From Pyxicephalus adspersus (taxonomy: Eukaryota; Chordata; Amphibia; Anura; Pyxicephalidae), in the NCBI RefSeq assembly GCF_032062135.1, contig NC_092863.1, positions 21,224,255 through 21,288,254 on the forward strand: a DNA stretch of 64,000 bases. The letters are read 5' to 3'. Below are positions 1 through 62,289 of the stretch, one piece after another (the stretch's first letter is position 1; every line of letters begins with the position of its first letter). The notes below the pieces were generated by a model that worked only from the letters and a program-made list of their open reading frames with translations, did no database searches and was not told where the DNA came from. A program made the position numbers and the translations under genes.

Positions 1-945
1 ACTTGGACCCCAATTTTTCTGGAATAGGGGTGGGGGGTTGGGGTGCAGGTAAACAAAATTAGAGGTGCAAGTGGGGGGGAACACCTGTTTCTTTGCTATG
101 GCATAGTCAGAATATAAAAAATTGTTCATCAAAATGCGCTGCCCCGTTACAAATTGCAGGTTGCTTCTATTACCTGGACCCCAATAAAGTTTTTTATGTT
201 CTGACAATGCCATAGCAAAGAAATTTTAAGGGTTGTTGGCCACACGTGCCCCCCCATTGTTTTAGGGGTGGTTTGTGACATGTGCCCCCCATTTGCACTT
301 TTAATTTTGTCTACCTTTACCCCCCCAGTTCCAGAGAAATTGGGGTTCAGGCGTTGGAAGCGACCAGCAATGTGTAACAGGGCAGCACCTTCTGATGATG
401 CCAAAGCGATGAAATATTAGGGGGTGTTAGCCAGAGGTGTCCCCCACTTGCACTTACATTTTTGATTTCATACATCCCCCCATTCCAGGGACATTGGGGT
501 TCTAATTAGGGAAGTGGACATGGTATTGTAGTATGATAGTTCTGTGGCAGGTAGGTATAAATTTAGGGGTCACACCTCCTTGCTATGTAAGTGGCCCTGG
601 GGTTCACAACTTGTATGCTTAATTTCAGGATTCTAGACACACTTTTAAAACAATTTTCACTAGTTTTTAAAATTATTACCCCCATTTTTGAAACTTGTTC
701 AAGGTGGGTATATGAAATTTGGGGTACTGCTACCTATTAGGCTCTACTGTGTACCCTGACATTTTTAAGTCGTTGTGACATACTGTTGAGGAAATATGGA
801 GGTTTGGGAGATGTAAGGCTGCAAAACATGACATGCAGCATTCATTCATTGTACACAAACAGCTAAAAAGTTCCTGCCGATGACGTCATTGTACACGCCC
901 CTTGTAATTTTACACGCCATTTTGTACACACCCCCCCGGGAGGAT
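1..945. mobile_element. Foldback-like inverted-array element, copy I (left side cut by window)
   Basis: The first 200 bases carry ACCCCAATTT-type subunits in one orientation. From about 320 onward the reverse complement appears (AAATTGGGGTTC, GTGTAACAGGGCAGC, CTTGCTATGTAAGTGGCCC). The right arm runs through GTGTACCCTGACATTTTT and AACATGACATGCAGC to about 945. The same order occurs near 10300-10860 and 25980-26730. No coding capacity or known transposase was seen. It stops about 130 bases before the MRPL45 start codon. Confidence 0.6.
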
Positions 946-1076
946 TTTTTTCACAACCAGCTTTATTTGATAGAACATCTAGTATTAGTGAGCAGAGGAG
1001 CAGTGACGCCAGTAGAATGCGCGAGGCGGAGTTTTCAGACGTGTGAGATCATTTGTGCGTGCCGAGTCTCCTAAAG
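946..1076 (+). promoter_or_regulatory. MRPL45: Probable MRPL45 promoter and 5' UTR
   Basis: This short segment lies between the end of a repeat element (about 945) and the start codon. It is locally GC-richer than the surroundings and contains GTGACG (half CRE-like), ATGCGCGAGGCGG (partly NRF-1-like) and AAAGATGGC over the start codon, which resembles the YY1 motif often found at such promoters. No TATA box is evident. The transcription start cannot be placed from sequence alone. Confidence 0.5.
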
Positions 1077-1118: not shown

Positions 1119-4100
1119 GTGGGTAAAGGTTACATTAACAAGAAACATTTGAACAATAAACTTTTTCTAAGTCATGTGTTAAGATATGCTGAACATCCTG
1201 GCGTGTTGCATGTGTGAAACCATGGGGAGGGGGATCGAACATGGAATCACGTTGTAGCCAAGACTTCCAGTTCAAGGAAGCAATGTCAAGTGTGTCATGT
1301 CTTTGTATTGACACAAGATTTGTGGAAGGATGCTGGTGTATTCACTGATGCATGCAAACATGATATAATATATTTCTATGCTTTCTCGCCATAGTTTCAC
1401 ACGTACATACCCACATTTCTGACCATTGTTTAAAGATTTGCCATTCAAATTAATAGGTGATGAAATGGTATATTTTTGGCAAAGATGGTCAATGCTTTAA
1501 TGGCATCTGGTGGGGTTTTGTTTGAGTTATACAATTAGAGGGGCTAATGCTGAAAGTGTAATTCCCTAATCCAGTCAATCTGCATTGCCTAATTTACAAT
1601 GGCTCTTCTATGTCACTTTTACAGTCTTCACCAGCCTGTCATGTTTTTTACATTGGGGAACTTGAGATAACATTAAGGTCTTCAGGAAACCCCTTCTATA
1701 ACTATTTCCACCTCTCGCAGTATATTAACTCTGTGGTCAGTTGAAATAATAATAGTGTCTCACTGCTTGTCTTCAGGATGACTGCCACACTTATAGATAA
1801 CCAAAAAGATCATTGAGATTTGTTAAACTGACATGAGAGGTCCAAATTACTCATGGTTCATAAACCCCTAGCAAACTTCTGGAGTAACCCTAGGGTTTCA
1901 CTGACTAATAGTTGAGAAACACTGAGCTATACTGTTTAACAATAAATCCAGAAAAAAAAAAATTGTAGAAAGTTATATCGTTTTTATTTTTGTTATGAAA
2001 AAACAAGCTTCCTGCCTACTACCTAAGGCTACGTACACACGTACGAAAATTGCCATTGCAAAACAAACGATTATGCACGATTATTTTGAACGATTGTATG
2101 GTAAGAATACGATCGTTCAAATATAATCCACCAATAATATGCACACACTAGATACGATCGTTTGAACGATGCAGGAAGTGATGTGTACTAGAGAAAGTGC
2201 TGCAGTACAATCCACGATCACTAAATTACTTCACACACAATGGATTGAGAAAGAGTGGTCATTCGTTTCCAGCAACTTTCCTCGTTCGTTGGTGTGGTTG
2301 GCCAGTCATTCAATTTTTTTATAAGATTATCTGCCGATCGGTCGTCAATCGTTCATTTCCAACGACAGTTATTGCACGTGTGTACGTAGCCTTAGTCTTT
2401 TCCTCATCCAGTGCTCCTTAGTTAAATGTAATCTGTAATCTGCATTTGAAGGCACTATAGTAAATCAATAACCTAGGTATTGGGTAAAATTCACAGTTAG
2501 ACTGTGTACTAGTATATATAATATTGCTTTAGGATGTAGTATTACTGCGTTTGGTATGTTATGGATCGGTATGTTGTGGAGTGATATATTAGGGATATTG
2601 GTGGAGGTTAAAGCTGACAACTCAAAAAAATAAGTCAAAAGGAAGTAGAGCTAATTACCAAGATACATTGCACGTCTCCTGTTGACATCTTAAAAAATAG
2701 AGCCCTGGCTCTCGGTGTCTTTTTGTTTTAGCTGTACATTGTTGGACGGACACAGAGCCAGACACTGGAGACAATGTAACTTCTGCACATGCACAGTGTC
2801 CATAATCTGTAGCCATCCAATAGCTGAAGAGGATCACTGTCCTCTCAGAAGTTGGAGGCTTCTCCTGATAGCTGCACAGAGGTAAGTCTGTGGTATAATT
2901 GGGAAGTATACCATAGCATAGCAGCAAGCAAACTTGCTGATTATGGCTAACGCTCCGCACCCAAGTTTCTTGGGATCATCCTGGGAAGGGGGGGGGGGGG
3001 CAAGTTTTAGGATGCCTAAAGTGAACTAAACCTGCAAAATTACCTGACCCTGTTCCATTGCAGGGTGCTGCCATTTTTCTGAAAACCACCATGCTGATAT
3101 ACTGTGAGCTGTGGATAGGGTATTTAAAGTAGAGGGTTCCCCAAGACCTATAAGTTATTTCATGGGTTCCCCCAAGGCAAAAAGGTTGAGAAAAGTTGCA
3201 CTAGAAAGATGTTTAACAGACGGGAGTTCTCTTTATCTTATGTCATATAAATGTACAAATGACTGCCTTTTAGCAGTTTGTGTGCATGCCCCCCCCCCCC
3301 CATTATTTGTTAAAATCATTGACCAACCGTTAAAAGAGGATACGTAATCGCCTTTCTAGAAAGCAGTGTTTTTATCATATTACAGGTGTCCACAAGAGCA
3401 TACACAATTTGGGATTTTCAAATTCAGGCAGTCCCCGAGTTTAGGACATCATGGGGTGGGGGCAATTTGCATGGCTTGCAGAAGAGGTCTTTTGCTGTTC
3501 TGCAAGCTCTTGTAACTTGTAATTGTGATTACTCACAGTGAGGATTTTATACAGTAACTGACACCAAGCTGCCTATTAATATGTTGAGACAAACATCTGT
3601 TCTAATTACATTTATTTACTGAGTTGTGTTATGGACCCTTGCGACATCTTATTGATCTAGTTAAGTTGCTAAAGATTAATTTCATTTTTGAAAAAATATT
3701 TATTTTAGTTACTTGAGTTAGACCGAAAGGAAAGTCCTTTTACTTGTTTTATTTGTCCATAAACTACCCAACGAACCATTATATTAATTCGAATTTTCTT
3801 CTTTAGTGTTTACCTTCTCTCCTGAAGCCTAATCGGTTTAAAATTCCACTCCTCCTTCATCCGATCAGGACAAAGAAAAGATTCTCTATTCCACCATCAG
3901 CAAAAAGCAATTATAATACTGCTGAAGAAATGGCACAGAAAATAAGAGCTGCTGGTATTATTGTTCCAGAAGAAATCATGGAACGTCCAATTAATGTTTC
4001 CTGCACAGGTAGTGAAACCTTATGTTGATAATGAAATGTATTTCTGAAATTTTTATGTAAATTATATTGTAATTGACCAATTATGCAGTGCTTTACAGAG

Positions 4101-7100
4101 AACAGATTATTCATGTAAATTGCTGCATCAAAATGTTCAGTGTGTTTACAACTGGTTCTTGGAGGAACGTGGAACCAAATTACATGGAGTCCAGGAAAAC
4201 ATTAAACCTCAAACTACAGTTCATTGGTAAAAGCGCTAACTGTCAGTTAAGTATTTGGTAGAATTATAGTATGGGATTACCATGCATGGTAAAGGTCTCC
4301 CAGACAAAAGCTTGGTGGTCTTTGCAGAAGAACTCTATTAAGTGGCTCCTTGTACAATTTATAAAACACTTTTGGTCCTCTGTTAACCTAACCGTTTTGT
4401 GGTAAGCTCTGAACTGCTTATCCTTACTAATACACAATGAGTTGATTTTTTTTTTTTTTTTTTGTTACCATCTCCTTATCCAAGACATTTTAAAACTGTA
4501 TTGCCTACCAGACAGATAAATGCCACTCCAAGCCCTCCTCACTGCTGACTTGTGTCTGCTGTACATCAAAATACATTTTCCTCTATCTGTAATTTTGCTT
4601 ATGGGTCAGTCCTGTGGACTTGTGCATTATGTGCTAGGGAAGCTGGTGGACCTGTACAGTATGAGCTAGGGAGGCTGGTGGGAAAGAGCGTGCTCCTTGT
4701 TTTACGTACTAGAACTTTCCCCAGGTGAGGGGTGACTTCTGACAGCTTCTTTATTTGAGACATCTGCAAAAATTTAAACCTTGTTCTCCAGTGAAGTGTT
4801 GCAGCAACTCCTGGCAGGTCCTGGTGTTTAGGTGGTTTTGTTGCAAACTATGTACTTGAAGCAGCACCAAACGTGAATAGGCCCAAAACCACATGGGCAC
4901 ACTATGCTGGAGGTTTTAGCGGCCTAGAACAGATAGCCTTGTAGTCATATCTAAACAGAAAGTGAGGCCTCTTCTTTGTATTCTTCATCTGGACGCTTGT
5001 GTTCAAGTAATTTGTAAGTGCAATGAGAATAGTGGGAAGAGAGCAGTGACTGCCAAAATATTTTTCGAAGAAGTTCTACACATATTAGGAAGAACATAGG
5101 GTTAGAGAGAAAAAAAGATGATGCGGCATATAATGAGGTGTTTTAAGGATGCTGCCTAGGAAATGAGTTGTATAGAAAGAAATCATAATTATTTTAGAAG
5201 AGGCGGGTGTTCCTGTATCTTGCGCTGAACCCCTAAATCAGGGGTGTCCAAACTGTTTGCAAAGAGGGCCAGATTTGGTGGAGTGAAAATGTGTGGGGGC
5301 CGACCGGATCAGCACATCCTCGGGGTTAGTGTGGGTGTGGTCTGGGAGTGTCCCGCACACACCCACCAGGATGACGCGAGGGATTCCCTGTGCGTAGAGT
5401 CTGATGTCAGTGTGGGCTCTGTGCAGAGCACGTTCTTGGGATCAGAGTGCACGTGGTCCGTGGAGGTCACGCACAGCTCATGCCCACTATAATGATGTAG
5501 GGGATTCCCTGTGCACACATGGGGAGTAGCAGGCCAATAATTGTAGGGCGGTTGATCAACTCTAATGAAATATAAAATATTTTTGTTGTACGTGTGTATT
5601 TTATACTGTGGTCAACAGTGGTGTCGGGCTGCATAGTATTGATTTTATGACAGACTGCTGCCCAGTGGAAATCTGAACACGGGCTGCATTTTGCCCCCGG
5701 GCCATACTTTGGACATGCCTGCCCTAAATAAATATATATTCAAAAACCGGAAAAACTAATTTCTTAGATTAGGATAAATAAAAAGTAGGGGACTTGGTGT
5801 ACAGCCAACTTGTCAGTTGAGAGGTGTTTGTACAAGATTGTGTATGCATTACCGCACAGAAATTTTTGTAGCCAGGTGGTCAAAAAAGTGGGTACTCAAA
5901 AAGTAGTCTTTCAATTTAATCTTTTTTACTTACTTGCACTAAAATGTCAGTCTTCCCTGTTGGCACTGGCTGGGTCAGCTTGTTTCCATGCAATATATAA
6001 TGATATCTGAAGTGTTTAGAAGTGGCCAGCTTGTGACTGTCAAGTTTACATTTTCTTCCTCTCCTGACCTTCTCCTCCACCTACTTCCCCTCCCTCCTTC
6101 AGGGAACACAAAGCTCTCAAGCTCAGCAGCTGCAGACAGAGCAGTGGCACAGTGAGAAAAAAAATCTGCATAACTAGGGCAGTGGGAGTGGATTACAATC
6201 ACTCCCACCAAGGATGGCATTTCCCAGATTGCACCTCTCTGCCTAGGCGATGGAGAGACCTAAGGGCGTGGCCAGAACTTGTTTTTTAATGTTTAAACTT
6301 AAAGCAAGCTGAAAAAATAAAAAAGGTATTTAGATGATTATAACTCAGGCTTATGTTATCTATAAACCAAAGTTGATTTTGTGAGTATAGGTTTGCTGTA
6401 GGTATCCAATAACCCCTTTTTATTGTCTGTTTTCCACCTTCCCCCTATACTTTTTAATGCCATGTCCCATATTTTTTTCTATCTTTTTTATGCCCCAACA
6501 GTCCAGTGACCAAACATCCTACTGTTCCATGTTTTGTTAAGTATGTTAAGTTATTGTATTCACATGTAGTAGGAGTGTAGAAGTCTTATCAATGCATTGT
6601 ACCAAGTTAAGATTAATTCACATTGGCTGTAAAAACTGTGGCATTTGCCACTCCCAAGTGACTACCTGTACTAGCAACTGCTAGGTACCTGGGATTGGTA
6701 ACAGGCAGTACCTTCCAGGGTTTTTCAAGACCCAGTGGTTTCTGCCATGAGAAAAGCAGTACATACAACTTTGCTTACAGTGTAAATTTGGCCAGCTTCA
6801 GATGTGCCCACTAGATTTATATCTAAGTAAATTGGAACTTTTCTGGAAAAAATAAATTTTTTACTGATGACCAGCCCATAATCTGTCCACAAACAGCCCA
6901 GTCCTGTGTAGGCTCAGCTTCCCTCTTCTTTCCAACGCTCTCCATTCTTCCCAGGCTTCAGATTACCCCTTCAGTTACTGATGTGGTGCTAAAGATTGAG
7001 GTCCTCCCTAAAAACATTGTTAAAATTTTTTAAAATGTTAAAAAAAAAAAAAAAATCCCAATTAAATATTTATAAAAACGGGTAGCCACTATTTTTTAAC

Positions 7101-10100
7101 ATGGTAAAAATGTGGTCAGAGGTCAGCTTTGAGAGCATCATGCATGTAAACGTGATGGCAGATGAGGACTGCTGGTGTCCCTCTCACTTGACTGCAGAGC
7201 ATGTATTCGCAGATGAGGGTGGGACAGCCAAGGGTCAAATAAAGCTGCTTGTGACGTAATATTGATGTCAGCACAGTATTATAGCTGGGTGTGTAAAGGC
7301 TGCTTGTCATATTCTGCAGGCTAACAACTCGCTTGAATTTTCAGGGTACACAGGGTACTTAGCTACTAGTAAGCATTTCGGTCCCCCAGCTTTAAAGAAT
7401 TTCAAGGTGTGGGGGTCAAAAGTTTACAAACTTGTGAAAATTGAACATTGGGGTTGGTGTTTCAAAAGCATTTTGAAAAATAAATGCAAATTGCAGTCCC
7501 CTGGGCCACTTACATACCAAGGACCATTGGGTTGGGGCCCCTAAAATTATGCCTACCTGTCACAAAACTATAACTGTTATACTGTCATTACTACTGTCAT
7601 TATTTGAGCATGAAAATCTCTACCCATCAAAACGAGCTGCCCTGTTAAACATAACTGACTGCCTGTAATGCTTGAACCACAATTTCTCTGGCATTGGAAG
7701 GTGTTGGAAACTGAAAAAGTAGGTACAAGTGGGGAACACCTGTGGTTAACATCCTCTAAAATTTACAGCCCACTGTTTTTAGAGAAATTGGGGTTTAAGG
7801 TAGAGAATTGAATTTTTTATGTGTAACAGCGTGTTTTGATGGGTAGAGATTTTTATGATCCAATAATGCAGTAGTAATGACATTTCAAGGGGTGCGGGCC
7901 TCCACTTGCACCTACATTTTCGGGTTTGTGCACATTTTTCCAGAGAAATGTTGCAGTTGGCTTTGCAGCTTATGCTTGGGGTCAGAATGTCTTCAGATGC
8001 TATGCATAATCCTAAATTAACCAAATTTTTTTTTGAATCGTAGCCAGATCATTGTACGTTTTTGTCCAGTCCTATGCTAGTGAGATGAACGTTGACTCTT
8101 TTAAGTGAAGTTGTATGGGGTCCTAAGAGTTTATATATTTCAGTTTGATTATTTAAGTGCTTCACATTGTACACGTGCAGTATTGATTCATATACTACCA
8201 AGACAGAATTCTTATCTTTTCATAAATGTAAAAGGGTATGTTAATAATGGTTATATACACTTACTAGATTGTTACCCCCAGATGATCATGATTGTTTGTT
8301 TCTGACAAAATTACCTGATCTGTCCTGACAGATGAATAAACAGCAGTGTAATGAAGAGCGATTTGCTTTAGAGGAAGTCACAGCGAGAGTGAGTCACTTG
8401 CTTGTTCCCCCCACCCCTTTTCCACAGAACATTTCTGTGTGTACAGTGCTCATTCATTGTCACTAAAAATGATCAGGAAAAAAATGGTTTTCATCCAAAG
8501 AGATCTAATGTGTGTACATAGCCCATATGTACATAGCCACACCTGAGCATTCACATCAACTCTGGTAACACACCTTCTTTATACCTACTTTAAGGGGGGC
8601 ATTTCTGGCTACAAATGCAATGTATGAAATCTTGAATCTGTTCCACAAATGTTTTCCCCCGTTATACTCTACAGTGTTCTCCCCAGAATTTTTTTTTACC
8701 TGGGTAGTGAGAAAAATGTATATGAGTAGTAAAAAAAAATATGGGCAGGGCAAGACATGGGGAATTTAGTGCTCCTAGTTTGTGCCATAGATATCCAGTA
8801 ACCCAGTGTTCTACCTACCATTTTTTTTTTGTTATGCCCCAACTGTCTATTGCTGTATATTTGATCCAACTGCCTAGTGTTCCATATTTAATAGTGTAAT
8901 CCTTTGTAGTTGTGTAATATTGTAATCAATGTAGCGTAACAGTTTAGGATTAGTTCACATTAGCAGTAAAAAACTGGACCATTTTACCCCTCCTGAGTGA
9001 CTACTTGGCAACTGCTAGGCAACTAAGATTGGTAACAACCTGGCAGTTTTTCAAGCAGCAATGGTTCCTGGCGAGAGGAAAGTGAGGGGTAAATGTAGCA
9101 AACGCAACCTTACTGCCAGTGTGAATTCAGCCTGACTTCAGATGTGTCCTCTTAGCGCTATATCTAGGTAATGCGAAGTTTTTGTAAAAAAAATTTCACT
9201 TGATTTATGTACGAGCTGAGCTCAGAGCCCCACATATGCTCAGTTTCCCTCTTCCTTCCGATGCCCACCGTTCCATTGCTGATCTCACTGGGCATGTGTG
9301 AGATTAAGCACTTTTTTTACATTATTGGAAAGCCCCTGAAGATGCATTCCTGATGCGCAATGGGAGCAGCCCACAGCTATCTGGGATATGTGACACAAAT
9401 ATCTCAGGAGGCTGCGGATTTACTCTACAGTCTTTATCATCTTGGCAGTAAAGATGGAAGGGGAGGGGTCCTCCCCCAAAAAATTAAAAAAAAACAAAAA
9501 CATATTTTTCTATTAATATGAGAAAGTCACCTTTTATATAATGTTAAAATGTGGTGTTGCTTTAGGAACATCATGCATGTGATGGGGGCAGTACAACCAG
9601 TGTCCAAAACTGCATGTGAAATTTATCCACACACAGTTTGATAGCTGTGTGTGTAAAGGCTGCTTGTCATATTCTGCAGCCTAACAACTCACTGTGTTCA
9701 ATCCTTCAGATCTCTTAAATTGTTGCTTGTAACGAGTTTTTTAGGGTAAACAGGGGTACACTCTTAGCTACTAATAACCAAGCTTTCTTTAGAGGATTTT
9801 AGGATATGGGGATCATGAGTTTAAAAAATAGTTGAAAGTGAACATTTGGGTTGCTGTTTCATAAATAAAGTGCATCTAGAAGCCCAAATTTGAAAATGCT
9901 AACTAAGGACCCCCAGGGACCATTTATATAGCAGGGAGCATTGGGGTGGGGCCCCCTAAATTTATAGCTGCCTTTCACAAAACCATGCTTCTGTTCTTTA
10001 AACTTCAATTTATCTGGAATAGGGAGGTTTAGGAAACTTAAAATGTAGGTGCAAATGGGGAACAGATGTATAAACCCCCTAAAATTTCATTAGCATGGCA

Positions 10101-13100
10101 TCATTTGAACATAAATAAAATTTTTGCCCATCAAACTGTTGGCTTCCCTACCTTGAACCCGTGCAGATAAACAAAATTGAAGGTGCATATGAGATGGGGG
10201 GCGACTTGTGGCTAACACACCCCAAACGTTTATCATTATGGCATAATTACAATGTAAAAAATTCTGCCCATCAAAATAGGCTGCTCTGTTAACAAATGAC
10301 TGTACACTTCCAGTACCTGAACCCCAATTTTCTTTTGGCTGGCAGAGTTTGTTTTAATAACAGTGATAAAATTTTAGGGGGTGTTATCCACAGATGTTCC
10401 CCACCGGGTTTCAGTTTCTACACCTTATTACATAGAAATTGGGGTTTGTGTTTGAAGTGGGCAGTAATGTGTAACAGGGCAGTACGTTTTAATAGTGTTT
10501 TTCATGTTCTGATGAGGCCATAGTAATGAAATTTTAGTGTGTGTGTTTTAGCTACATTTTCCAGCGAAATTGGGATTCAAAGAAGAGAAGCAGACAGGGT
10601 AACATAGTATGACAGTTACAGATCTGTAAAAGGTAGGTATCAATTTTGGGGCCCCATCCCAATTCTCCTTTCTATGTAAGTAGCCCCGGGGGTCCCCATC
10701 TTACTTTTTTTTTTTTTTTAATAAGGACTTTTAGGCACACTTGCTTTTGAAACATCAACAAGTTTTTACAATTCTGATCCCCGTATCTTGAAATTTTTAA
10801 AAGCTGGAGTGCTGAATTGTAGTTACTATTGGCTATGAGTGTTACCTGTGCACCCTGAAGAGCTAGTGAATGGGGAGGGTGAGCTGTGCTGTGCTTTTCT
10901 CCTCTCGCCAGGCTCTTATCAAGGCCTTGAATCCTTTGAACAGATAATGGAGAGGCTGCTCTGTTCTCAGTTGTCATCTGTTCAAAGGATTAGAGCTGTG
11001 TATAAGAGCTGGGCAGATGACGAACAGCAGCTGGGCACCCCGCCCACCAGCAAGAAGCTGGGGAGAACTATGTTCTAATATATAATTGTTTTCTTTGTTC
11101 TAATGAACTATTGTTAATACCTAAACCTTTCTGTCTTCTAGTATACTATCAATCTCCCTCACAGTAGCACTTTGGTGTTTCTTTATATCCATTTACAGGC
11201 TGTGTGCCTACTTAATTCTTCTCTTTATTTCTAGGTGGAATTTTAGACCCCTATGTACCTCCAGAGGGTGATGCACGCCTGTCCACACTTTCCAAGGATG
11301 GCTTGAAACAGAGAACAGAAAAGCTAAGACAGACAGCGGCCTCTCATTTGGCGTATGTTCTTGCCATCCTTGATGGCCATTTTTCTTTTCTTACCTAATC
11401 TATATCTCCTTGCCACCCTTTCCTGGGCAAAAACTGTTTTGTGTGTATATATACAAGACGTGAGTATAAATTAAGGGTTTTTATTAATTCATCCCATCTT
11501 TTGACTTTTGTTTCTATTACCAGTGATCTTCTTTTTATATTCTAGTATTCTTATCAACCTTATTGTCTTGCACTGCACATGCATGAGATCGGCCTTTTTT
11601 TTTTTCCATGAATGAAACAGCACCTTTTGTGCATGTCTGAGATAAGGACATGTGCGAAAAAAGCAGCCAGATGCCTCCTGGGATGCGTGACCTAGGAATC
11701 CCGGGAGGCTTTGCGCTCCCATTCTGTCTTGATAGCCACGGCGATAGGGATGGTGTGAGTTACCCTATAAATCCTTTACTTCAATTCTTCACAATGTTTA
11801 GTTCCCTCCCATTATGTATGTAGTTTATAATAGGCATCTTTCTGATTACTCCGTTGTGTTTCCTGCATTTGGAATCTCCACTGGCCTGTATGAATTTTAG
11901 AAATTAGACCTGCGCCTGCAAGAGATTGGCAATTGTGTTTTTCATTAATGAAGTGCTCAAGTTCAAATTGCAAATAGTAATGTGCACAGCCTTAAATGAG
12001 TCACAATGGCTAAAAAATTGGTTAAGAAACAATTGGATAAACATTCTTGTGTCCTTAAAGAGCTGAGCTTACTTATTTCAAAGCCATTGTTTCAAATTTT
12101 TAGCTTCTCTTTAACCCAATGGCGGCATGGTACCTATCTTCTATCTATCTGTGGTTCCTATCTTCAAAAAGGGTGCAAAGTCATTACCAAGTAACCAAGT
12201 AACTACAGACAGGTAAGATAAACTATAGTTGAAAAGTCTAGAGAGTGTGATAAAAAAAACACATAAAAAACATAGAGTCTGCAAAAAAATACTATAGTTG
12301 ATAGCCGTCATGGATTCAAGGAAGACGTAATTTGTCTCAAATTTTCTCCCATTTTTTGAGGAAGTAAGTAAACCGGTAGATAGTGGAGTAGCAGTTGATA
12401 TAGTGTACTTGGACTTTGCAAAAACATTTGTCACAGTACCCCACAGACAGTTAATATGCAAGTTAGGGTCCATAGGTTCAAAAAATTCAATCCGTAAATG
12501 GATAGAGATCTAGCTTAAAGACCACATCCAGAGAATAGTAATTAATGATTCATACTCTCAATGGTCTTAAGGTTATTAGCGGTGTACCCCAGGGTTCAAT
12601 ATTGGGACCTTTATTGTTTAACATCTTTATAAATTATATAAAACTCGGGATTAAAAGTACCATTTCTGTTTTTGAAGATGACACCAAACTGTGCAATGGA
12701 ATTAAGTCTATACAGGATGTCTATAACCTACAAGCAGACCTGGATTTACTGTTTCATTTGTCAAATTACATTCCATATTGTAATGTAATGCACTTGAAGG
12801 CTAACAATCTGCAAGCTTCATACTGTCCAAAGTAAAGTATCTTGAAGTTTTGGTAATATTAACATGCAATACCAAGCTGCAATATCTAAAACTCAAAAAC
12901 TCACTAAATCTAAAACTGAGCTTGCTCATTCTTGGCTGGTGACACAAGTGAAGTTAGAAAACACAGCAGTTTAAAAAAAGCAGGTAAATCCTTTACTAAC
13001 TACAAACTGTAAGTAAACTTTTTTAACTCCTTGAAAACAATGTAACTTGGAAAATGAGTGGCAGCAAGGTGGAAGGTTTTGTTCAGTGCACTGTCCATCA

Positions 13101-18464: not shown

Positions 18465-21400
18465 CATATTGATTGAGTGTTAAATTGAACAATTTTCTCA
18501 ATTCGGAGATACTGGGAACAAAAAAAGCTATTTTTTTTATGAAAACAGGATGTGCACTTTTTGCTGATAAGATGGTATTACCCGCAGAATTCATAATCTA
18601 AATATCCAAAAGGATATTTGTTTCCAAGTATATTGTAGTGTTAATTTTGAATTGAATGGATTGCCTTGTAATTTCTCAACAAACTCCAAAAATACTTTTC
18701 CGTACCAGTCCATACGAGAAATACATTATTGATGTATCTGTGCCTTATTAATACATGACAGCGATGCATCAAGAGGTTCTCGCTTGCAAATAGGCTCCTT
18801 TCCCAGCAACCCAGGTACAGGTTGACCTAAGTTGGCATACTTGGTCCCCATAGCCACTTCCTGTACCTAGAGGTAAACTCTGTTTTGTTTGTTAGTTTTT
18901 TTTTTTATCCCTATGGCCGTTGATTTTTTATAAAAAAAAAAGGTGCAATCGCCTAGGCGATTGAGAATGAATGGGAGCCCAGAGCCTCCCAGGATACCTA
19001 CATCATGTATCCCGTGAGGCTCTTGGATGCTCCTTTTCCTGTGAGGAGAAAAATTTTCCGAACTCACGCATGCACAGTGAGATGGAAAAGTTTTTTTCCC
19101 CAACCTATGTCACCTGATCTCGTGCCTGGGTCGGGTGACAGAGGAAGTAGAACCACGATGAAGAGGTGAAGATGGTGGCGCTGGGAAGGCCATCCCGAAG
19201 ATGGATACCGGGATGACACGGTACCCAATGGAAGACAGCTCCGGACCAATCGACTGCACTGCAGGATTGAAAGTAAGTGGATTTCTTTTTGTTTTAGGCA
19301 TTTTTGAGTTTAGTTCCTTTAACTTCTTACGTAAAATACTCTGCCTAGGTATCTCAAGGTGCGTACACACTTCCAATTTTTATCGTTCCAATCGAACGAC
19401 GAACGATCGATTGGGCAAAAAATCGTTCGTAAAAAAGTAACCAACGACGCCGACGAACGAGGAAAGTCGCTGGAAACGAACGACCGGACCGGCGGATCGG
19501 ATTGGACGACGATCGTTGAACATCGTTCGTGTGTACGGTCGTTCGTTGATCGTCCATGTTCAGAGCATGCGTGATGAACGAACGTCCGTTCACTTTCCTG
19601 TCGTGCACATAGTTCCTCTATCGCTTAAACGATCGTATCTCTTGTGTGTACAATATCTGCGGACGATCGTGTCGTTACCTCTATGTGCAGTATCGGTGCT
19701 ATACGATCGTTCATATATATCGTGCAGGAACGTTCGTCGTTCGTTTTCCGACGATAATAATTGGAAGTGTGTACGTAGCTTCAGTCAGAGGACAGGATAA
19801 TGGGTATAATAATTTCTCAAAGAACCATATTATCAGTGTGAATAAATACAATACAATAAATACCCTTTGAAAAAACAATATTAAGCACAATAAATTGCAC
19901 AAAACCCGTAACAATTAAACAATTATAAAGTAGGTGCTCTGTCGGTTTGTACCTAAAAATTGTACTGTTGGCATAACAACAGATAACGGAGTGTGCTGGT
20001 CCTCTTTCTGTATGAAATTCAAGGCTTTCTGTCAGGCCAAGTAATACGTAAGACCCCAACATGCGGGAACAAAAGGCTTTCTTGAGCATTTGCTGCGGAG
20101 AAATTCTGAAAAGTTAAAACCTACCTCACTTTACCTCACCGACTCTCACCTCCATCTGCCTGCTGTAGGCTGCTAGTACTGTGTCCTTATCCATCCTGTG
20201 AAAGAATTTTGCGATCACCAGCCTTGGTCTTTGACTTGATGGTAGACGGTCAGGCCCAATTCTGTGCACTCAAAGGCTCAAACAGTGAGAGGGGGAAGGT
20301 TTAGACTTAACATGGGATCAACTGAAAAATTTTTTTTTTTTGTAAGTCTTGACCTTCGTATTCCTCGGGAATACCTATGAAGCCCAGATTTTACCTTCCG
20401 TTACTGATCTTCCGAATTTTCCAATTTTTCCTCCATATATGCCATTTGATTGGTCTTTAGGTTAAATTTTCCTTGAGCTTCAAAAAGTTGATCCTCTACA
20501 TCGCTAACACCTTGTTCCAACTCAACAATTTGAACTCGTAGTGTTGGAGGATATGTTGGCGACAATGGTTTCAAAGGCATGTCGCGGCGAATCAAATTTT
20601 TGATCAAAGTAGGGCATAAGTAGGTCTGCAACTTCTTTGGCCATGGATCCCTGGGGTAGGATGGGGTCTGCTGATGTAGACAAATCACTAGATGTTTACT
20701 GTGACGTTGACAAAGGCAGCAATTCTGGTGATTTAGGAGACCGGATTGGCGATGACAGCCCTGATTTTTGTTGTCACTAATACCCAGTTCCCTCTCAATA
20801 AAGATTTCTCTCTCAGGACTCTGGGGAGGTACCAAAGTCTAGGATAACACTGGATACAATGTTGCGAGCGGGAGCTGTGCAGTGTTTCAGCCACCTTGTT
20901 CAGCGCTGCCCCCGAAAGTTCTCAATAGCTTGGCATCACTTGTGTGTTCACGTGTCTTCTAATTTTAACAATACTCACAGGTAACTTTAGACCTCCTGTG
21001 ATCCTTCTGGAACTGATTATTGGCTGAGTCTTTGTCATTTTGGCTATTATATCCTTTTAAATTGTAGTTTTCTGTTTTTTTAATGTCTTTGAGGTTTTGG
21101 TTGCCACTTTATATGTTTTCCCAATTCTATTTAACTTTTTAATCAAGGTACGCTGTTCTTCTGAACAATGTCTGGAACCCATTTTAACCGGATATCAGAG
21201 AGAAATGCTTCCTTGAATAAGGGCCATAATTGACACATTTTTTTCACCAAATTAACTACCTCACTAGTTTAACACCACACTAATATTTAAAAAAAAAAAA
21301 AACTGATATTCTCTTTTCTGCTTTCAAGGAATAACACAAATTTGATATATTTTTCCTAATGTTTCAATTTGTAATAGAGCGGGCAGTGGTATAATAGCTT

Positions 21401-24400
21401 TTATTTCCATACACACAAATGCATTGGGCATTTGTGTGAATAGAAAATAAAAGCTGTTTTAAGGATTTTGGCGTTCTACTTTTTTTTAAAACACACTGCT
21501 ATTGCTAGCTATTCTAAACACAACTGTAGGTTACTTAAGTGTCTATGTAAAAATCAAAATATGGTGACAGGAGAATTTGACTAAAAGAAGAAACATTTAA
21601 TGTTTTGGTCAATTTTGAGCCTTTCACACAGTTATCAGCATACTTGTTTCAGTTTTTTTCAAGTAGTATTTAGAATTATTTAAGCAATGGCAGCTTACAT
21701 ATTCTTTCAGCGGTAGGTCTTTAGGCCTGCTGTACCCATTTACAGAGCAAAGTGAAAACTTGTGGTACAGCCAGTGCTGGTAGGGGATGTAGAATTAGAT
21801 GAAGAACCAATTCTGTTGTGCAAGAAATAAAATAAATAGATGCATTAATAAAAATAAAAGGGTTATGGGCCAGGGCAATTTTCCTGGCAACCCAAACATA
21901 CGTGCAGCATCAGAAAGTATTCAGACCCCCTTCAATTTTTCTATTTTGTTATGTGGCAGCCTTAAAAAAGGAATTTAAGACATCTTAGTTCATTTTTTTC
22001 TTTAATATATATCTACTTTTTTACATTTTTATCAGTATTTAGACCTTCTGCAACAATTCTTGAAATTTGGCACAGGCCCCTCCAGTGGTGTGCCACCTGT
22101 AATAAATGAATTTGATTGGACATGATTTGGAGAGGAACACACTTCTTTTTAAGGTCTCATAGCTGAAAATGCATATTGGAGCACAAACCGGAATCTGGGG
22201 AAGGCTGCAAATATATTTCAGCTTCACTGAAAGTTTTAAGTACAAAGTAAAAGGTTTGAATATTTGTTTAAATGTTAAATGTTTTATCTTTTTTAACAAA
22301 TATTGCAAATTGTCTAAAATTTTTTTATGGTTTATGTTTGTCATTAAGGGCAGGGGGTGTAGATTAATAGGAGACGAAAAGAATTTGAACAATTGTAGTA
22401 TAAGGCTGCAACATAACAAAATTGAAAAAAATGAAGGGGGTCTGTGTACTTTCTGAAGCCACAACACACACATATGCATACCCTAAGACTGAATTTTAAA
22501 TTGGCCTAAAAAACTGTCCCATATGCAAAACCAGAGGTTGTCTAGCACCATGTATTGAATCACAGAAATGATCCTGCAAACCTATGTAACGGAACCTTTT
22601 CTTGTGCACTTGATCTACAGTTCTGTTTTCCATTAAGGTGGACCTAAACTCTAACATCATACCTAATATTTATTCTCACTTTCTTGGACTGGAATGTTAG
22701 TTGTCACCTTAATCTGCATTATCATCCTTATCCAAGATGTTATCCTAATCCGAGTTGTCACCCCCATTTTTTGTAGCTCAGTGACCCCAATAAAAAACCT
22801 TCCATTCAGATGTGAAGCCTCCCTGCTAAGGAGCTGAGCCAACACCCCTCCTGCATCTGACACAAGCAGACCTTGGTGCTGGAGAGTAAGCGCAAACATC
22901 ACATGACAGGAAAAAAGAGGGAAAAAATGCATTAAACTGGATGGTCCCACTCCCATTGCTTTGATTGGTCAACAAGTTAAGTGCTTTTCCCCCCCCCTCT
23001 TTGACTGATGGGGGAGGGGTCAGAGCAATTTTTTGACAGTTTATGGTGTTGAGAAGCTTTAAACAAAAGTAAATCCCCAGACAGATCATATTACCTTAGG
23101 TTTACATAATCCATAAACCCAAGTTGAAAGTGTGAGTTTAGGTCTGCTTTAAGTACACCTGTGGCTTGCATCATCTGTTCATGTCTGTTGGCACCCATGC
23201 CATCTTGATCTGTGTTCTCTCTCTTTCTCACACTCTCCTCTCTCTTTTCTCACTTGCTTTTTTTTGTGCTGTATTGCAGACCTTTTTTGCCATGTGCTAA
23301 TTTACCATGTGGGTGTGTATAGTTTCTTCACCAAAGCTCAAGCCTTAGATAAAACTTTGTTTTTGCCTGGAGTTTTGGTGGATTCTTAGACTCTTTGTTG
23401 TTGGATGAGAGTTCTCCAGGGTTTTTCCCTCCCTAATGTGAAGGTTCTCAGTGTGCTGTCCTGCTAAACATTTTGGTAAAATCAAAGTTGAACTTGGTAA
23501 CTATATTTCCAGTAGCCTTACAGAACAGGAGGTTACCTGCCCTAGTCTTTTATTTATTTTTTCCTGTTGTATGTTTTTTTAACAGATCACGTCCCTCTTT
23601 CTTACCAGTATACCAGAGGCACTTTCCTTTTAAAGTGCTTAGTGATATATTTTCTGTTGGATACGTGCAAGTTTCATTTATGTGTTGTCCTTTAAGAATA
23701 TTGAAAGTAGTTAACACTAAATCTAACTGATTTTGACTTGCAAGATATTAAAGGTATGGTACATAGACTACAGCTGGGTAAATGCTACTGACAGCCTGGT
23801 AAAATGTACGGCTAATACAGATTGTGGCAAAAACTACCATTTTTTTCTTTTCTTGCTTTAACTAAAGGGGCATACGGGTTCTAAAAGATCAATGTGAAAG
23901 CTCTCTGACTAACGATTTTCCACAATGATTATAGTATGAACAAGCACATTTGTCCTTATGCAGCAGGGTGGGAGAGCATGCAGGTTTTGTCTCAGTAAGA
24001 CAAAAGTTGGATGCAAAAATTGTAGGTTCCCTAAATCCCAGACATGCAAATATTGATCTGTCCCCGTTTGAGAACTCACCTTCTGCACTTTGTTAGTACA
24101 TAGGCTCGCGAGTTGCATTGGGAAGGCTTGTGCTAAGTTCTAAGTAATCTGTGAGTAGGGTGAAATGGCAACGTAACATGAAGTGGCTGCTTATGCATTA
24201 CTTGTGTCAGTTTGTCACTTCAGTTTTATTTCAGGGGATAGCATTTTCATCATTTTGTAGATTCTGGTTAATAGCCTCATTAATTATAACAAGAACCACA
24301 GGGTTTAAAAAGATTTGGGAAGTCTCTGTGAGATTACTGGTTGTTTCTCAATATAAACCATATGGCAATGCATTGTTCCCCCAGAATTTTTTTTTCAGCC

Positions 24401-27400
24401 AGGTGGAGGGAAGCTGTAGCCACGTGGTCAAAAAGGGGGTGTGGCAAAACACAGCAAATTTAGTGCTCCCAGTTGTTTATGCCATTGGTATTCAGTAACC
24501 TCATATTGTTTGTGTTCTACCTTCTCCCTGCCCCGTTAGTATATCACATTTTTCCATTATATGTATTTTGCCACAACTGTCCAATGCCGTGTATTGTGAC
24601 CCCACTTTCTAGTGTTCTAAGTTGAGGTTGGGGGGGCACTCACTGCGGGGCTCATCTTCAACGTTGAAATGCCCAGTCTTGGAACAAGATATCCAGGTTT
24701 TGACAGTGCGATAGGAAGGACACTTCTCCAGTGTTTGTGACATCTCAGTGTAAATGTCCTTTGCTGACTTTCCTTGGAGAAACAAAAAACTTCATGACGG
24801 CCCGTAACTCCAACGACGTGACACTTGATTGTGCCTCTGCCATCACAGCTTCTCACTAAAAGAAAAAACAGTTTTAAGAATCGTGAAGATCTGATATTTG
24901 CACAGTTACATACTAAGATGTTGGGCTGTCATATGCCCCCACACTCATTTTTTTTATCTCATTTGGAAGGGGGCAAAGCCAGGAACTTCTCAGCACCCCC
25001 TCGTATTTACTTAAAGTGAACTTTTGTGAAAACATTTTTTTTCACTTGTTTCACAAAACGAACCCAGCGGGCTTATGGTGGCTCAGCTTCCACCTTTTCT
25101 CTGATGCTCACTGTTACGTCCAGTGCCTCCTTGCACTGCGCATGCATGAGATTAAACACTTTTTTTCCTTTTTTTTTTTTTTACATTATAATAAAGCCTC
25201 TGAAGATGCCTGCACAGAAGTAGCAGCCCAGAGCCTCTTGGGGTATGTGACACAATTATCCCAGGAGGCTGCGGCTTTCCCCTTCGGTTTTTACCGAAAT
25301 GGAAGTAAATACTGAAGGGGAGAGGTCCTCCCAAAAAAGCGTAAAAACAAAAAAAACACATTTTTCCATTATATAATGTTAAAAATGTGGTGATGCTTTA
25401 ATATCATCATGCATGTGATATCAGATGGGAACAAGACAGCCAGTGTCCACGTCTCATCACTGCCAAAAAAAAAAAAAAAAAAAAAAAGGCTGTGAAGTTT
25501 ATTCACAGTGTTGTAATGTTATTGGCAGCGCAGTGTGATATCTATGTGTAAAAGCTGCATGTCATATTCTGCAGCCTAACAACTTGCTGTGTTTAAACCT
25601 TCAGATCTCCTAAACCGTTGGTTGTATTGACTTGAAATTTTTAAGGTGGATGTGGAGGCATAGGAAACTGAAACTGTAGGTTCAAGTGGGGGACACTTGT
25701 GGCTAAACCTTTCTAAAATTTCATTACTGTGGCATTATGAGAACATAAATCCCTACCTATCAAAATGGGCTGCCTGCTTTGTTACACATATCTGTCTGCA
25801 TCTCTACCTCAAACCCCACTTTCTCCAGAATGAAGAGGTGCATGGAAACAAAAATAGAGATGGAAGTGGGAGACAACTGTACCTATCACCTCCCAAACTT
25901 TCATCACCATGGCATCATTACAACAAAAAAAAAAAACTGCCCATCAAAATGCACTTTCTTGTTACACATGACTGTACCCTTCCAATACCTGAACCCCATT
26001 AAATTTTAGTGGGCAAAGTTTGTTCTAATGATAACCTAGTGATGAAGTTTTAGGGGATGTTAGCCACAGATGTTCCCCACTTGTACCTACTTTTTTGGTT
26101 TCTTACACTTCCCCATTCCAGGAAAATTGTTCAAAATGTTAGAAGTGGACAGGAATGTAACCGGACAGGGAAGCCCATTTTTATGGGCTGAGTTTTTTAT
26201 GTTCCAATGATGCTATAGTAATGAAATTGTAAGGGGAGAATGTGTCCCCCACTTGCACCTATATTTCCAGTGTTGTACCCCCTACCTCTTCTAAATCGGG
26301 GTTCTTCTAAAAGAAGAGAAGCAGACAGGGTAGTTTTATAGGTAAAGATTTGTGACAGGTATATATTTAGTGGCCCAACCCCAATGCTCCTTGCTATGTA
26401 AGTGGCCCCGGGTCCCCAGTTTGGATTTTCAATTTAGGACTCCTAGTTGCACTTTTCTCTGAAACAGCAACCCCAAAATTCAATTTTCCTAATTTTTTTC
26501 ATTAGTGACCCCCATACTTTAAAATTCTTTAAAGCTGGAGGAAACTGTGGCAACTAATATCTATGAGGTTCCCCTGTGCACCCTAAAATTTTCCAAGTCA
26601 TTGCGACATACAGTTTAGGAGATATGAAAGTTTGTACATGGAGAGCTGTGAAGATGCAGAATGACATGCAGACTTCACACACAGCTCTCACAGCAGTTAC
26701 ATCATTACACATGCCCACTCGGGTGGATACATTTTAGAAGCAGCTTTTTTTCTTTTTTTTTAAAAAACAGAAATCCCAGCTCGTGCTATCAGATGGGGGC
26801 AGAGCTGCTTGTGTCTCACTCTCATGGCTGAACTGTGTGCTGAGCTACCCGCCCACCTCTCACCAGCAGCAGCAATTCTCTGGATGACAGCTCAGCACAG
26901 AGCAGCCTCAGAGATCCATGCAGAGGATTAGAGCTGCCGAGGTGAGGTGGGCGGGGAAGGTACGGCAGCCGAGCGGAGCAACCGGCTAAAACCTTCTGGG
27001 GTCTGGGGGGGTCATAGAAAACTTGGTGTAGTAAGCCTTTAAGCAGAAATTATTATAGAGAAAAATTGAATATATCAATATTAAATATCAATTAGTATAT
27101 CTGAGATTTGAGAGTCTTTCAAATGCTGCAAAAGCTGTTGGCTAGCAGATCACCCTGTGTTGCTTATATTTGGCAATATGTTCTTCCAAAGTCACAAAAA
27201 TGTTAAGGAAACATGACTAATGTAGGTAATGTTCTTTAGATCCTAAGGGATGTAAAGGGGGGCATTCATCCACATTTGAGCATTTAGGCTGTGTGGATTT
27301 GTGCTTTTAGGTTTCCATGTCAGATGTCTACACACGTGTGCGTTCAGAAGCCAAACTATTTTGAAAGCATACTTTTTTGTCTAGGCCAAGAATTCTGGAT

Positions 27401-30400: not shown

Positions 30401-33400
30401 AATATCTTAAAAAAATAATATAAAAAAATCTGTTCTTGTTTTTGAATATATAGTATAATTAACCCAAAGGGGATGCTATCGAATCACTCCTTGAAAAATG
30501 AGATCTGACCCAATAAGTTTGGGAACCTATGCTCTAGCCTGGTGATGGGCATTGACTGGATACTAGTGTCCTTCAGAATTCCAAAAGGAAAACAGTCTGT
30601 TTTTGTAATTCAGTGCTTTTACACTCTGATGAACTTTCCCAAATTTTAAGACGACATGTACTTCTTTTGTATTTGAACTCTTGCAAAGTGTTACTGACCA
30701 ATATTATCTCAATGGCAGCTTTTGGCCAGGGAATGCATGGTAAAATGCTTGGCAATTGATACCTATATTTCAAGATTCTTTAAAGCAGAAGTAAACTAAA
30801 AAACAAAAAAAACTCATTCCCCTTTACTTTTTCAGATCCGTTGATCCCTCCATAGGTTTCCTGGATTGGGTCTCGCTTTGGGGTTGTGCAGATGGAGCAG
30901 CCAAAAGCCTTCTGGGATGCCTGACGTATTTATCCCAGGAGGCTCTGCGGTTCCATTCTGTCTTGATCACCACGGGAAGGGACTTTACCCTTTCTTTAAT
31001 AAACCCCACCAAAATAAGAAGTCCCTTTTGATTCTCTGACGAGCACTTTTAAAATATCAGATCATTTGAAGTCAGTCTTTCTCATTGCCTTTATACCTGT
31101 TAAAGAATGTGAAGAAGTGAATTTTGTGCCCTCTATAGCAGGACATTTCCGATGTTCTTTCCAGATTGGATACTCAGAATCTTTCTACAGAAAGTATTTC
31201 ACAGATAATAGGAGCTTACTTTACCAGCCAGTCAGTGCTGCAGAAATTTATAGTAAAAGTTTGCACCTCCACTTTGTAAAATTGTAAGTCTGTTCCACCC
31301 TAGTCTGGTAAGTTTTCTATTTAAAGTCTTCTCCTGCGTTAATGGTAGAAGCCTTTTTTTGCAGTCTACTGGAAGCTGTTCTGGTTAAAACTAACCCTAG
31401 TTTTAAGCCACATTTACATCTGTGTAGTGTTTATTTAAATGCGCTGGCAACAGACCCTAAATTGTCCTGCACTATTTTTTCAAAAGTGGAGCACTTTCAT
31501 GTTAGGTAGTATGTTACCTTTGTCTTGCACTGCACTGCTTGTAGGTTGGTGGTGCAATTCGTTCCCTTTGTTTAAATGGCAATGGATGAAAGCATATGTG
31601 GTGCTTTTATTGTGTTACTGCAATGTATAGGTATGATTATTGCTTGTTTATAAACATTTTTCTTCTTCTGTTCTAGGTTTGATCGTCACAAGTTACATAG
31701 TCTGGTGACAGAGCGTTGCTACCCTGTAAGGAAGTTTATATTGTGATATATATAATTTTTTTCTTGTCATTTATGTAGAATGTAGACAAAAAAAAAGGAA
31801 AAAGTTTTTTAAAAAAAAAATTAAAGTATATAATTCCCCAGAAAAAAATAAACACAAAAACATGTACAGCCCTAACACAAATGCATATATGTACCTGGGA
31901 GGTTTGCAGTTTATAGAAGGGTATTGGGTAGGTGGTCTGATTTTGAGATTTTCAGTGCAACAAAGGCAGCATTGTCAGTCATGGCAAAAAAATACTTCCC
32001 TGAAATTTTGGCAGAACAAACTGTTTGAAAGATGCAGACATTAACATTGGTGAGAAAATGGGGCCTTCAATTCCAATGAGTGCTGCGAGAAGGGGCCACA
32101 GACACAGTGGGTTTTAGTTGCTGCAGGTACAATAAATCCTGAGTAGGGACCTTCAGATGGGTGGGTGCAGAGAGAAGGGGGTTTCAAGTCCATAGGTGCT
32201 GGGAAGAATAGATATTAGGGAAGGCTGCAAACTGAATGCTGAGGGGAGGGTTGATGCAGGTGGTTTGATTTTCTAAAAACTAGGTCACCACAGCCTTCTC
32301 TCCATCCCATTGTCTGGCTGTGTGTTTTTGGTAATGGTGGGGTCATCCAGCCTGGATGATGACAGGAGTGGTCCTCTTCCAAACAATACCTTCACCTTTT
32401 ACTGCTCCTGCAGCACAGATTATAACTCGAGGGAATATGTGCTTCCTGGAAAACTCTGTTGCGTTTCAGCCTTTTTGCTCATCTTGTTTGCTTGCTTTCT
32501 TGTTTTCTAAACTCTGACTATGTCACTGTATAAGCTGTCAGGACAGTTTTAGACAGCAAAATTTTTTTAAGGACTGGGTTTTATGTGTGGGGAGAAAAAT
32601 CCTAATCATAAAGGCTTGCTAGTAGCAATATTTCCAAGGGAAGCAGAGGGTTGTGTAGTGAGCTGATTGATGAGTGAGTTTAGCAGTCAGAGGGATGACT
32701 CCTAAGGGCCTATTCCAATTAGCAGTCAACTGCAACGTTGAATCACAAACTCAACTATGGACCCAACAGCTAATATTCAACTGCAAGGGACAGATTTTGG
32801 AACTTCTGTTGTGGCACAGTTCCTTAGAGTGACATGTCGATTTGGTACTGTGATTGATTTTTCTCCTCTTGAGCAAGTACTTCACCGCTGCTTCAAATGC
32901 AATGCATGCAAAAAGGTGTAGCTTGACCCAGGTTTAGTTTGCCACTCCTGGGTGCATAACAGCAGTTTGATTTATACTAGGAAGCTTCTAACTATGCAGT
33001 TTTTCCACCAAAGGGTCTAAAAGTGACCTAAATTGAAATGCCTTCAAGCTGAGTAATATGACAATGCAGATCAGCATTGTCCACTTCCAGCATAGCAAAG
33101 CCCAATTTGCTTATTTCAGCTTTGTACAGGCTCTCCAGTAAGCCAATGTCTAGAAGACATGGATTTTTGAAAACGGGTAGCGCAGAACAAGGATCCATGG
33201 AAAAAGGACTGCAGGTAGATTGTAGAAACAGGAAGAGTACAGCAAATTAGCGGGGTTGGCTGATAAGGGGGTAGCACTATAAGTTTCTCACAACTGTATT
33301 GCCTATTAGTGGAAAAGGTATGAAATTGAAGGCCGAGGAGGTTTTATTGTTGTGATAAAATGTTTCAAAAAACTTGCTATCATCAAGTTGATGATTGTTC

Positions 33401-55682: not shown

Positions 55683-56575
55683 CAGTGAGGGAAAGAAGTA
55701 TTTGATCCCCTGTTGATTTTGTACGTTTGTATGACAAGTCTATAATTGTAATGGTAGGTTTATTTTAGGTGGGAGACAGAATAATAACAAAAGAACCCTC
55801 AAAAACCCAGTGCTCAAAAGTCAGAGCTTGATGTGCATTGTAATGAGTGAAATGAGTATTTGATCCCTTCGCAAAAGATGACTTAGTACCTGGTGGCAAA
55901 CCCCTGGTTGCAATAACAGAGGTCAGATGTTTCTTGTAGTTGGCCACCAGGTTTGCACACATCTCAGGAGGGATTCAGTCCCACTCCTCTTTGCAGATTC
56001 TCTCCAAGTCAGTAAGGTTTGGAGGCTGATGTTTGCAACTCGAACCTTCAGCTCCCTCCGCAGATTATCTATGGGATTAAGGTCTGGAGACTGGCTAGGC
56101 CACCCCAGGACCTTCATGTGCTTCTTCTTGAGCCACTCCTTTGTTGCCTTGGCCGTGTGTTTTGGGTCATTGTCATGCTGGAATACCCATCCACAACCCA
56201 TTTTCAATGACCTGGCTGAGGGAAGGAGGTGCTCACCCAAGATTTGACGGTACATGGCCCCGTCCATTGTCCCTTCGATGAGGTGAAGGTGTCCCGTCCC
56301 ATTAGCAGAAAAACACCACCAAAGCATAATGTGTCCAACTCCATGTTTGACGGTGAGGATGGTGTTCTTGGGGTCACAGGGCAGCATTAAGCGCAGTGTG
56401 TTACCAATTGTTTTCTTGGTGACTATGGTCCCAACTGCCCTGAGATCATTGACAAGTTCCCCCTGTGTAGTTCTGGGTAGCTTTGTCACCGTTCTCCTGA
56501 TCATTGCAACTCCATGAGGGGAGATCTTGCATGGAGCCCCAGACTGAGAGAAATTGACAGTTGTTTTGTGTTTGT
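55683..56575 (-). pseudogene. Tc1-like transposase with internal deletion
   Basis: The terminal repeat CAGTGAGGGAAAGAAGTATT starts at 55683 after TA, at the end of the L1 fragment. The minus-strand frame 56504-55923 (193 codons) has an HTH part ([20 protein letters not shown]), then an in-frame deletion that removes the first catalytic Asp region. [39 protein letters not shown] and [19 protein letters not shown] follow. The usual IEN catalytic Glu is Asp. The far terminal repeat is missing beyond about 56575, so it is immobile on its own. Confidence 0.92.
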
Positions 56576-56589
56576 TCCATTTTGTTAGA

Positions 56590-57240
56590 TGGCAAAGTGA
56601 GTGTTATGAAATGCTCATCTGTCTGGCGACTTTGTGCTGTGCACCATAGCAGTATAAAACACTGTTCTGTCCAGCAATGTCATTACAGCAGCCACTGCTT
56701 TCCTTTAGTTGTGCAACCCGGTGTATTTTTGGCATCCCCAGCATCCATTACTGGGCTGCGCACAGCTGAAGGGGATTCTAGAGGCTGATCAGCTCCTGGC
56801 TCAGTCCTGCACTGGTATTGGCTGCTGAGACTTGAAAGCCTCTCTGCTCCCAGTCACCAGTGCCTGTTATAGCGTAAAGCTGGGATAATCTATGCCGGAG
56901 TGCGTTTTCGTCTGATTTATTGTTGCTGAACCTGCTTGTTTCTGATTTGTGAGTTTATGCTACCTGGACTGACCTTTGCCTGTGCCTCGCACTCTGTTTG
57001 TGTTTGCTCTTAGTTTGGTGGACGGATGTTTGGTGTATGACCTCTGCTCTGTATTCTGGACTTGGCTCTGTTGGAATCCTGCTACTGCTTTATCTGTGGG
57101 CTCCTGACTTGCTGCCAGCCCATTCCCAGACTCCATCCCTTGCGCAGTAAGTCCTGGGGGCAGCCAAGTGCTGGAAGACGCAACCAGTCTCCTGAGGCTG
57201 AGCGGGGGCTTGCTACAGGTGAAGACTCTCACCTTTAGGA
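56590..57240 (+). repeat. Possible Gypsy-type LTR and leader
   Basis: This GC-richer block is distinct from its surroundings and contains GGGCTCCTGACTTGCTGCC, CTCCATCCCTTGCGCAGTAA and GAAGACGCAACC. It resembles leader sequence I associate with frog Gypsy elements. No protein frame, primer site or second LTR could be fixed. It starts where the Tc1 is truncated. Confidence 0.3.
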
Positions 57241-62230: not shown

Positions 62231-62289
62231 ATATTTGTTGAGAGTGTTTGAGGGGAGGGATGTAACTCCTCCTACAGAGGTATAAAGGA

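Follow-up and report, generated by a model that had tools for sequence, protein, structure and literature searches.

The window, that is, the whole 64-kb stretch of DNA analysed here, contains four decayed copies of one repeat, which have the appearance of an old DNA transposon whose hairpin-like core consists of opposed repeated units. Two segments of the window, 3807-4007 and 11237-11350, match mL45 chains, the former in residues up to 81 and the latter from residue 83 on; as these exons match adjoining parts of the protein and flank the second and third copies, both copies lie inside one intron of an MRPL45 gene, which encodes the mitochondrial ribosomal protein mL45. The copies are numbered here from left to right:

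1..968, plus strand: copy 1, truncated on the left where the window starts, recognised by unit and right-arm matches, with a tail to 968 that matches copy 4 (0 of 200 shuffles as good)
6364..7923, plus strand: copy 2, right-truncated and without a centre; its left segments match copies 3 and 4 (0 of 200 shuffles as good), and it retains units and a left arm
8672..11071 (right end approximate), plus strand: copy 3, the best preserved and near full length, with terminal segments colinear with copy 4 and a short terminal inverted repeat (TIR)
24371..27000 (right end approximate), plus strand: copy 4, nearly full-length and carrying a nested stretch that includes a mariner fragment; delimited by self-comparison and by the segments shared with copy 3

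A first-pass annotation of the same DNA had already recognised four copies and placed all of them, while missing the right ends of copies 3 (~11071) and 4 (~27000). A candidate fragment of the left end of copy 2, near 5855, was spotted by eye only.

The repeated unit measures ~173-180 bp (a 173-position model; a 180-bp step in copy 4), instead of the ~230 bp first proposed, and the inverted arrays proposed along with it are present in all four copies as plus-then-minus arrays of this one unit. A third-round unit model gave 20 matches in the 64 kb, with a top score of 142 bits, and all of them lie within the four copies, none elsewhere. The chance control consisted of 20 dinucleotide-shuffled windows, whose best match was 8.7 bits for the three-sequence seed model, which has 17 matches of at least 10.8 bits in the real sequence, and 19.5 bits for the final model, the successor of the third-round one. 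This latter maximum is exceeded by 17 of the 20 matches, of which 8 are plus, 9 are minus and many are partial; the remaining three, at 2-30, 10598-10559 and 26351-26279 (10.5 to 17.6 bits), fall below it and were not counted. Since the unit and arm models were derived from these same copies, their scores are inflated. The units are located as follows:

50..526, mixed strands: units of copy 1, some partial, plus at 50-187 and minus at 259-186, 310-261, 469-321 and 526-476 (25 to 126 bits)
7572..7923, mixed strands: units of copy 2, plus at 7572-7701 and 7707-7764 and minus at 7923-7777 (98, 43 and 101 bits)
10033..10345, plus strand: two units of copy 3 (85 and 131 bits), with an extra partial one at 9966-10027 (24.9 bits)
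10333..10557, minus strand: two partial units of copy 3 (44 and 84 bits)
25664..26015, plus strand: two units of copy 4 with a 180-bp step (142 and 128 bits)
26003..26271, minus strand: two units of copy 4, the first partial (79 and 126 bits)

The model of the arms has six matches of up to 342 bits, those on the left being plus and those on the right minus, and zero matches in 20 dinucleotide-shuffled windows at E up to 10; five of the six were seeds of the model, the sixth (25537-25650, 76 bits) being independent of it in this respect:

536..850, minus strand: right arm of copy 1 (287 bits; seed)
7280..7575, plus strand: left arm of copy 2 (275 bits; seed)
9640..9989, plus strand: left arm of copy 3 (323 bits; seed)
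10614..10861, minus strand: right arm of copy 3, its outer ~96 positions missing (212 bits; seed)
25537..25650, plus strand: left arm of copy 4, outer third only (76 bits; not a seed)
26340..26690, minus strand: right arm of copy 4 (342 bits; seed)

Taken over the 64-kb window, the unit and arm profiles place plus units before minus units in each of the four copies, beside or between pairing arms of ~350 bp. The pairing of the outer arms had been noticed at first sight, and it extends to both arms in copies 3 and 4, while only the right one is found in copy 1 and only the left one in copy 2; likewise, self-comparison returns inverted repeats at the copies, and not direct ones only. Copies 3 and 4 have a common order and a common centre, copy 1 is similar, and copy 2 lacks the centre. 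In copies 3 and 4 this centre is a single junction, passing from position ~170 of the plus model to position ~105 of the minus model, and that of copy 1 lies near it (157 to 93); at the centre of these three copies, plus and minus units share 2 to 13 bases. When the cores are folded as DNA, copies 1 to 4 give z scores of -6.1, -6.3, -6.7 and -5.1, each against 60 dinucleotide shuffles.

Comparison of the units with one another bears on when the arrays were formed. Mean identities, computed on the 92 of 105 pairs with at least 45 columns, are 67.4% (same strand) and 69.7% (opposite strand) within a copy, and between copies 70.2% for units in the same slot and 68.1% and 67.5% for the other pairs, giving no clear signal of concerted evolution within copies. 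The unit tree, which took in the 11 of 15 units with at least 95 bases, is nearly star-like: six of its eight inner branches are open and none reaches the strict mark. Below that mark, copies 3 and 4 pair by their second plus units (88/89), and two units of copy 1 pair at 89/90. Such a tree fits, without proving it, an array made shortly before the spread of one master. Kinship between arm and unit does not rise above shuffles (60 of 300 as good; 128 of 300 for the reverse strand), so an origin of the units from the arm, in the manner of the Tetris element, is unsupported. The second plus unit of copy 2 resembles the inner minus units of copies 4 (52/58) and 3 (32/36), against 36/58 and 34/58 for their second plus units, and this resemblance hints at an inversion of the core through the arms. 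A flip of the core in copy 2 is nevertheless not claimed, as the same unit is nearly as close to the first plus units (47/58 and 44/55), the first plus unit of copy 2 is closer to the first plus units (70.7%) than to the outer minus units (68.2%), and the test on the arms had no clean control.

For elements of the Foldback/Galileo type, the arms are expected to be kept alike within one copy. Here, the two arms of one copy share 68.9% of 228 columns (copy 3) and 75.9% of 112 (copy 4), left arms of different copies share 83.5% of 109, 77.4% of 279 and 79.7% of 69, right arms are 66.8 to 71.8% alike among themselves, and left-right pairs from different copies reach 74.9%. The split of left from right arms is marked by 8 diagnostic columns, compared with 0-10 for other splits of the six arms; one left arm contributes only ~110 columns, and the closeness of copy 2 to the left arms is confined to the outer 65. 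These identities give no sign of homogenisation within copies and hint, on this thin sample of sequences, that left and right arms parted before the element spread.

What lies outside the arms is shared as well. The left ends of copies 3 (8672) and 4 (24371) align, and these two copies match, in the same order, in a terminal and a middle segment on the left and in a terminal segment on the right, each match being equalled by 0 of 200 single-letter shuffles; the two left segments also match copy 2 when paired with either copy 3 or copy 4 (again 0 of 200). In coordinates of copy 3, the left region is shared in order with copy 4 at 8672-8882 and ~9238-9606, and with copy 2 at ~8763-9196 and in parts of 9235-9592, and it may be a mosaic. 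The match of copy 2 begins at ~6364, short of the TIR. On the right, copies 1 and 4 have a common tail (0 of 200 single-letter shuffles as good); the tails of copies 1 and 3 show no such likeness to one another (169 of 200 shuffles do as well), each matching a different part of copy 4. Two observations can be added on these regions: the right terminal region of copy 3 (10892-11029) is an imperfect palindrome of ~140 bp (69%), and a module of the left region (9363-9439 and 25215-25270) recurs outside the copies, at 11662-11741 and 30896-30975.

The end sequence of the element reads CAGTGTTCTCCCC, and the left end of copy 3 begins with CAGTG. Its right end bears an inverted match, GTTCTCCCCAG, and the two form a short TIR with an exact core of 11 bases (4 of 500 shuffles as good). 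At the right end of copy 4 the corresponding TIR is weak, being equalled by 45 of 500 shuffles. Copies 1 and 2 have no proper TIR on their right sides, and none at the end motif: their best matches to the end of copy 3 are equalled by 17 and 77 of 500 shuffles, those to the end of copy 4 by 359 and 480, and the best TIR-like match of copy 1 lies away from the end motif. Copy 3 is bordered by a candidate target duplication, TATACTCTA / TATGTTCTA, in which 7 of 9 letters agree (29 of 1000 random place pairs do as well) and which also allows an 8-bp reading with 6 matches; for copy 4, no duplication is seen at either of two possible ends, where 865 and 687 of 1000 random pairs do as well. Given distances (K2P) of 0.19-0.44 between the arms of different copies, target duplications should have eroded. 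Members of the hAT superfamily have ends like CAGNG and an 8-bp target duplication. Copy 3 resembles them in its CAGTG end and in the 8-bp reading of its duplication, and differs from them in that the duplication is a candidate only and that no transposase is seen in the scanned frames. An end of this kind with a candidate duplication of 8-9 bp would presumably suit hAT, P or Mutator, a length of 8 bp pointing to hAT or P and one of 9 bp to Mutator.

The distances just quoted come from the 13 of 15 arm pairs that were long enough, two of the 13 being within a copy, and together with the mariner nested in copy 4 they fit an old family. With the substitution rate of Xenopus, given as 3.0-3.2e-9 per year (PMC9250109), a typical pair (K2P ~0.35) would correspond to roughly 55-60 million years since the spread, if that rate suits the host.

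We consider it fairly probable that the four copies are decayed insertions of an old non-autonomous DNA transposon of the TIR order, ~2.4 kb long on this TIR-bounded reading, whose inverted core was formed once, before it spread. To judge from the fullest copies, it would begin with a short TIR and a left region, ~970 bp long and lacking an inverted partner; then would come an arm of ~350 bp, at least two plus units of ~175 bp and the centre, followed by at least two minus units, the inverted arm, a right region of ~210-310 bp and a short TIR. We infer that the unit was first amplified in tandem, that an inverted duplication then made the core (arm and units, units and arm) once, in a master copy, and that this master was mobilised through its TIRs in trans, by cut and paste, with a transposase coded elsewhere; possibly, the units offered the transposase repeated sites to bind, a role suggested by analogy with Galileo only.

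Coding content matters most for the alternative that the copies are what is left of a larger, autonomous transposon; its transposase gene would have been lost, or would sit in the left region, decayed past recognition. The long left region without an inverted partner, found in the three copies that reach it, is what such a remnant might leave. Copies 3 and 4 hold 19 stop-to-stop frames of at least 60 aa, and in the 10 compared with Pfam the sole match above the cut-off is the nested mariner, a mariner/Mos1-type HTH_48 fragment of copy 4 (24612-24791, minus strand, E 7e-6), at a site where copies 2 and 3 match each other and copy 4 does not. The first-pass annotation saw no transposase, and these 10 frames likewise show no recognisable domain of the element's own, neither a THAP-domain transposase of the P superfamily nor a hAT domain; the remnant is an unlikely explanation. 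Among the four copies of this one window, no autonomous partner was seen either. Rfam gave 0 matches at the gathering threshold. In collections that are prokaryotic or viral, where zeros say little, the unit pattern had 0 matches in viral contigs and 2 in genome contigs (Paludibacteraceae and Bacteroidales); these two score 15.1 and 15.0 bits, on 58 bases starting with the picked 23, stay below the 19.5-bit shuffle maximum and are attributed to chance. The end pattern had 0 matches in viral contigs, a zero that again says little for a viral collection. Among the titles and abstracts listed from the open-access literature, none describes the family, and the motif and end strings gave unrelated papers only.

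Slightly less probable still is a true Foldback/Galileo-type element, in which the arm-unit core would be the element and the arms its TIRs, the outer segments being an older element that it jumped into, or host DNA. The arms do pair and flank repeated units, as in Tetris of Drosophila virilis, whose terminal inverted repeats contain repeats of ~220 bp and whose target duplications are of 8-10 bp (PMC4079207), and inverted halves containing tandem repeats are present, with few units per side and many of these partial. The segments outside the arms, however, keep their order in copies 2, 3 and 4 on the left and in copies 3 and 4 and copies 1 and 4 on the right, and insertion of a core at one identical spot every time is unlikely. 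The Foldback/Galileo-like identity first suggested for the element is not supported, because its long inverted repeats are not at the termini: in copy 3, the arms start 968 bp in from the left end and stop ~210 bp short of the right end. It may nevertheless have worked like these elements.

Local inverted duplication or satellite-like spread without transposition is very improbable: copies 1, 2 and 3 do all lie inside the first 11.1 kb, but copy 4 follows ~13 kb further on, the tested flanks differ between copies, and Tandem Repeats Finder, which misses copies less than ~70% alike, lists no array at the copies. A non-mobile satellite was likewise rejected, as no head-to-tail array at one place was found. 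No cross-match at E up to 0.01 was obtained among seven ~400-bp pieces of flank, save where the piece to the right of copy 2 and that to the left of copy 3 overlap, and since the tested outer flanks are unmatched the copies look like separate insertions. The initial picture of an interspersed element able to fold back thus stands, with cores that fold better than shuffles and tested flanks that are unrelated.

Returning to the non-autonomous TIR transposon, Tetris and Galileo are the nearest to it in design, as far as the available parts of their descriptions go. Like Tetris, it is non-coding, has inverted halves with repeats and no autonomous partner was found; unlike in Tetris, where the repeats lie within the terminal inverted repeats, the arms are internal, the units measure ~175 bp and the target duplication is a candidate only (PMC4079207). 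Galileo of Drosophila has TIRs of 0.5-1.2 kb at its ends, a known transposase of the P superfamily and internal repeats that hold extra transposase-binding sites (PMC3688188). Internal repeats in inverted orientation are common to both, and the element differs from Galileo in lacking long TIRs at its ends and in that no transposase is seen in the scanned frames. The Xmix/Xstir and miDNA4 MITEs of Xenopus are described as sources of tandem satellite arrays, and a convergent core is not mentioned for them in the accessible part of their description, by which alone they are compared (PMC9659126).

More tentatively, and with considerable doubt, we propose a vertebrate DNA transposon family in which arms and unit arrays would form an internal, off-centre palindrome, made once and then inherited, in which the hairpin would act as cargo, or as a binding platform inside the element, instead of as the terminal repeat. 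Should the arms prove internal throughout the genome, this family would have uncoupled the unit hairpin from the terminal repeats, two features that are joined in Foldback/Galileo, and would help to ask what purpose the hairpin serves; if not, it adds one to the old repeat families that need masking.

The window contains further repeats and frames. Three copies of a ~431-bp repeat (19353-19781, 46128-46558 and 53352-53782) are 97-98% identical and far younger than the element studied here; a divergent relative lies at 2257-2395. At 44065-44529, a ~96-bp unit is repeated five times head to tail, each copy with an imperfect hairpin of ~50 bp (86-88% in the two short self-matches listed), and an inverted repeat at 49944-50172 has 46-nt arms, 80% complementary and 137 nt apart. 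On the minus strand, the stretches 55926-56603 and 54783-55142 hold a transposase remnant, with DDE_3 above the cut-off and a Tc3-type HTH below it, and a reverse transcriptase match below its own cut-off. Finally, two adjoining open frames of 135 and 158 aa at 61401-62285, on the plus strand, match no Pfam family above the cut-off and are possibly of mobile-element origin.
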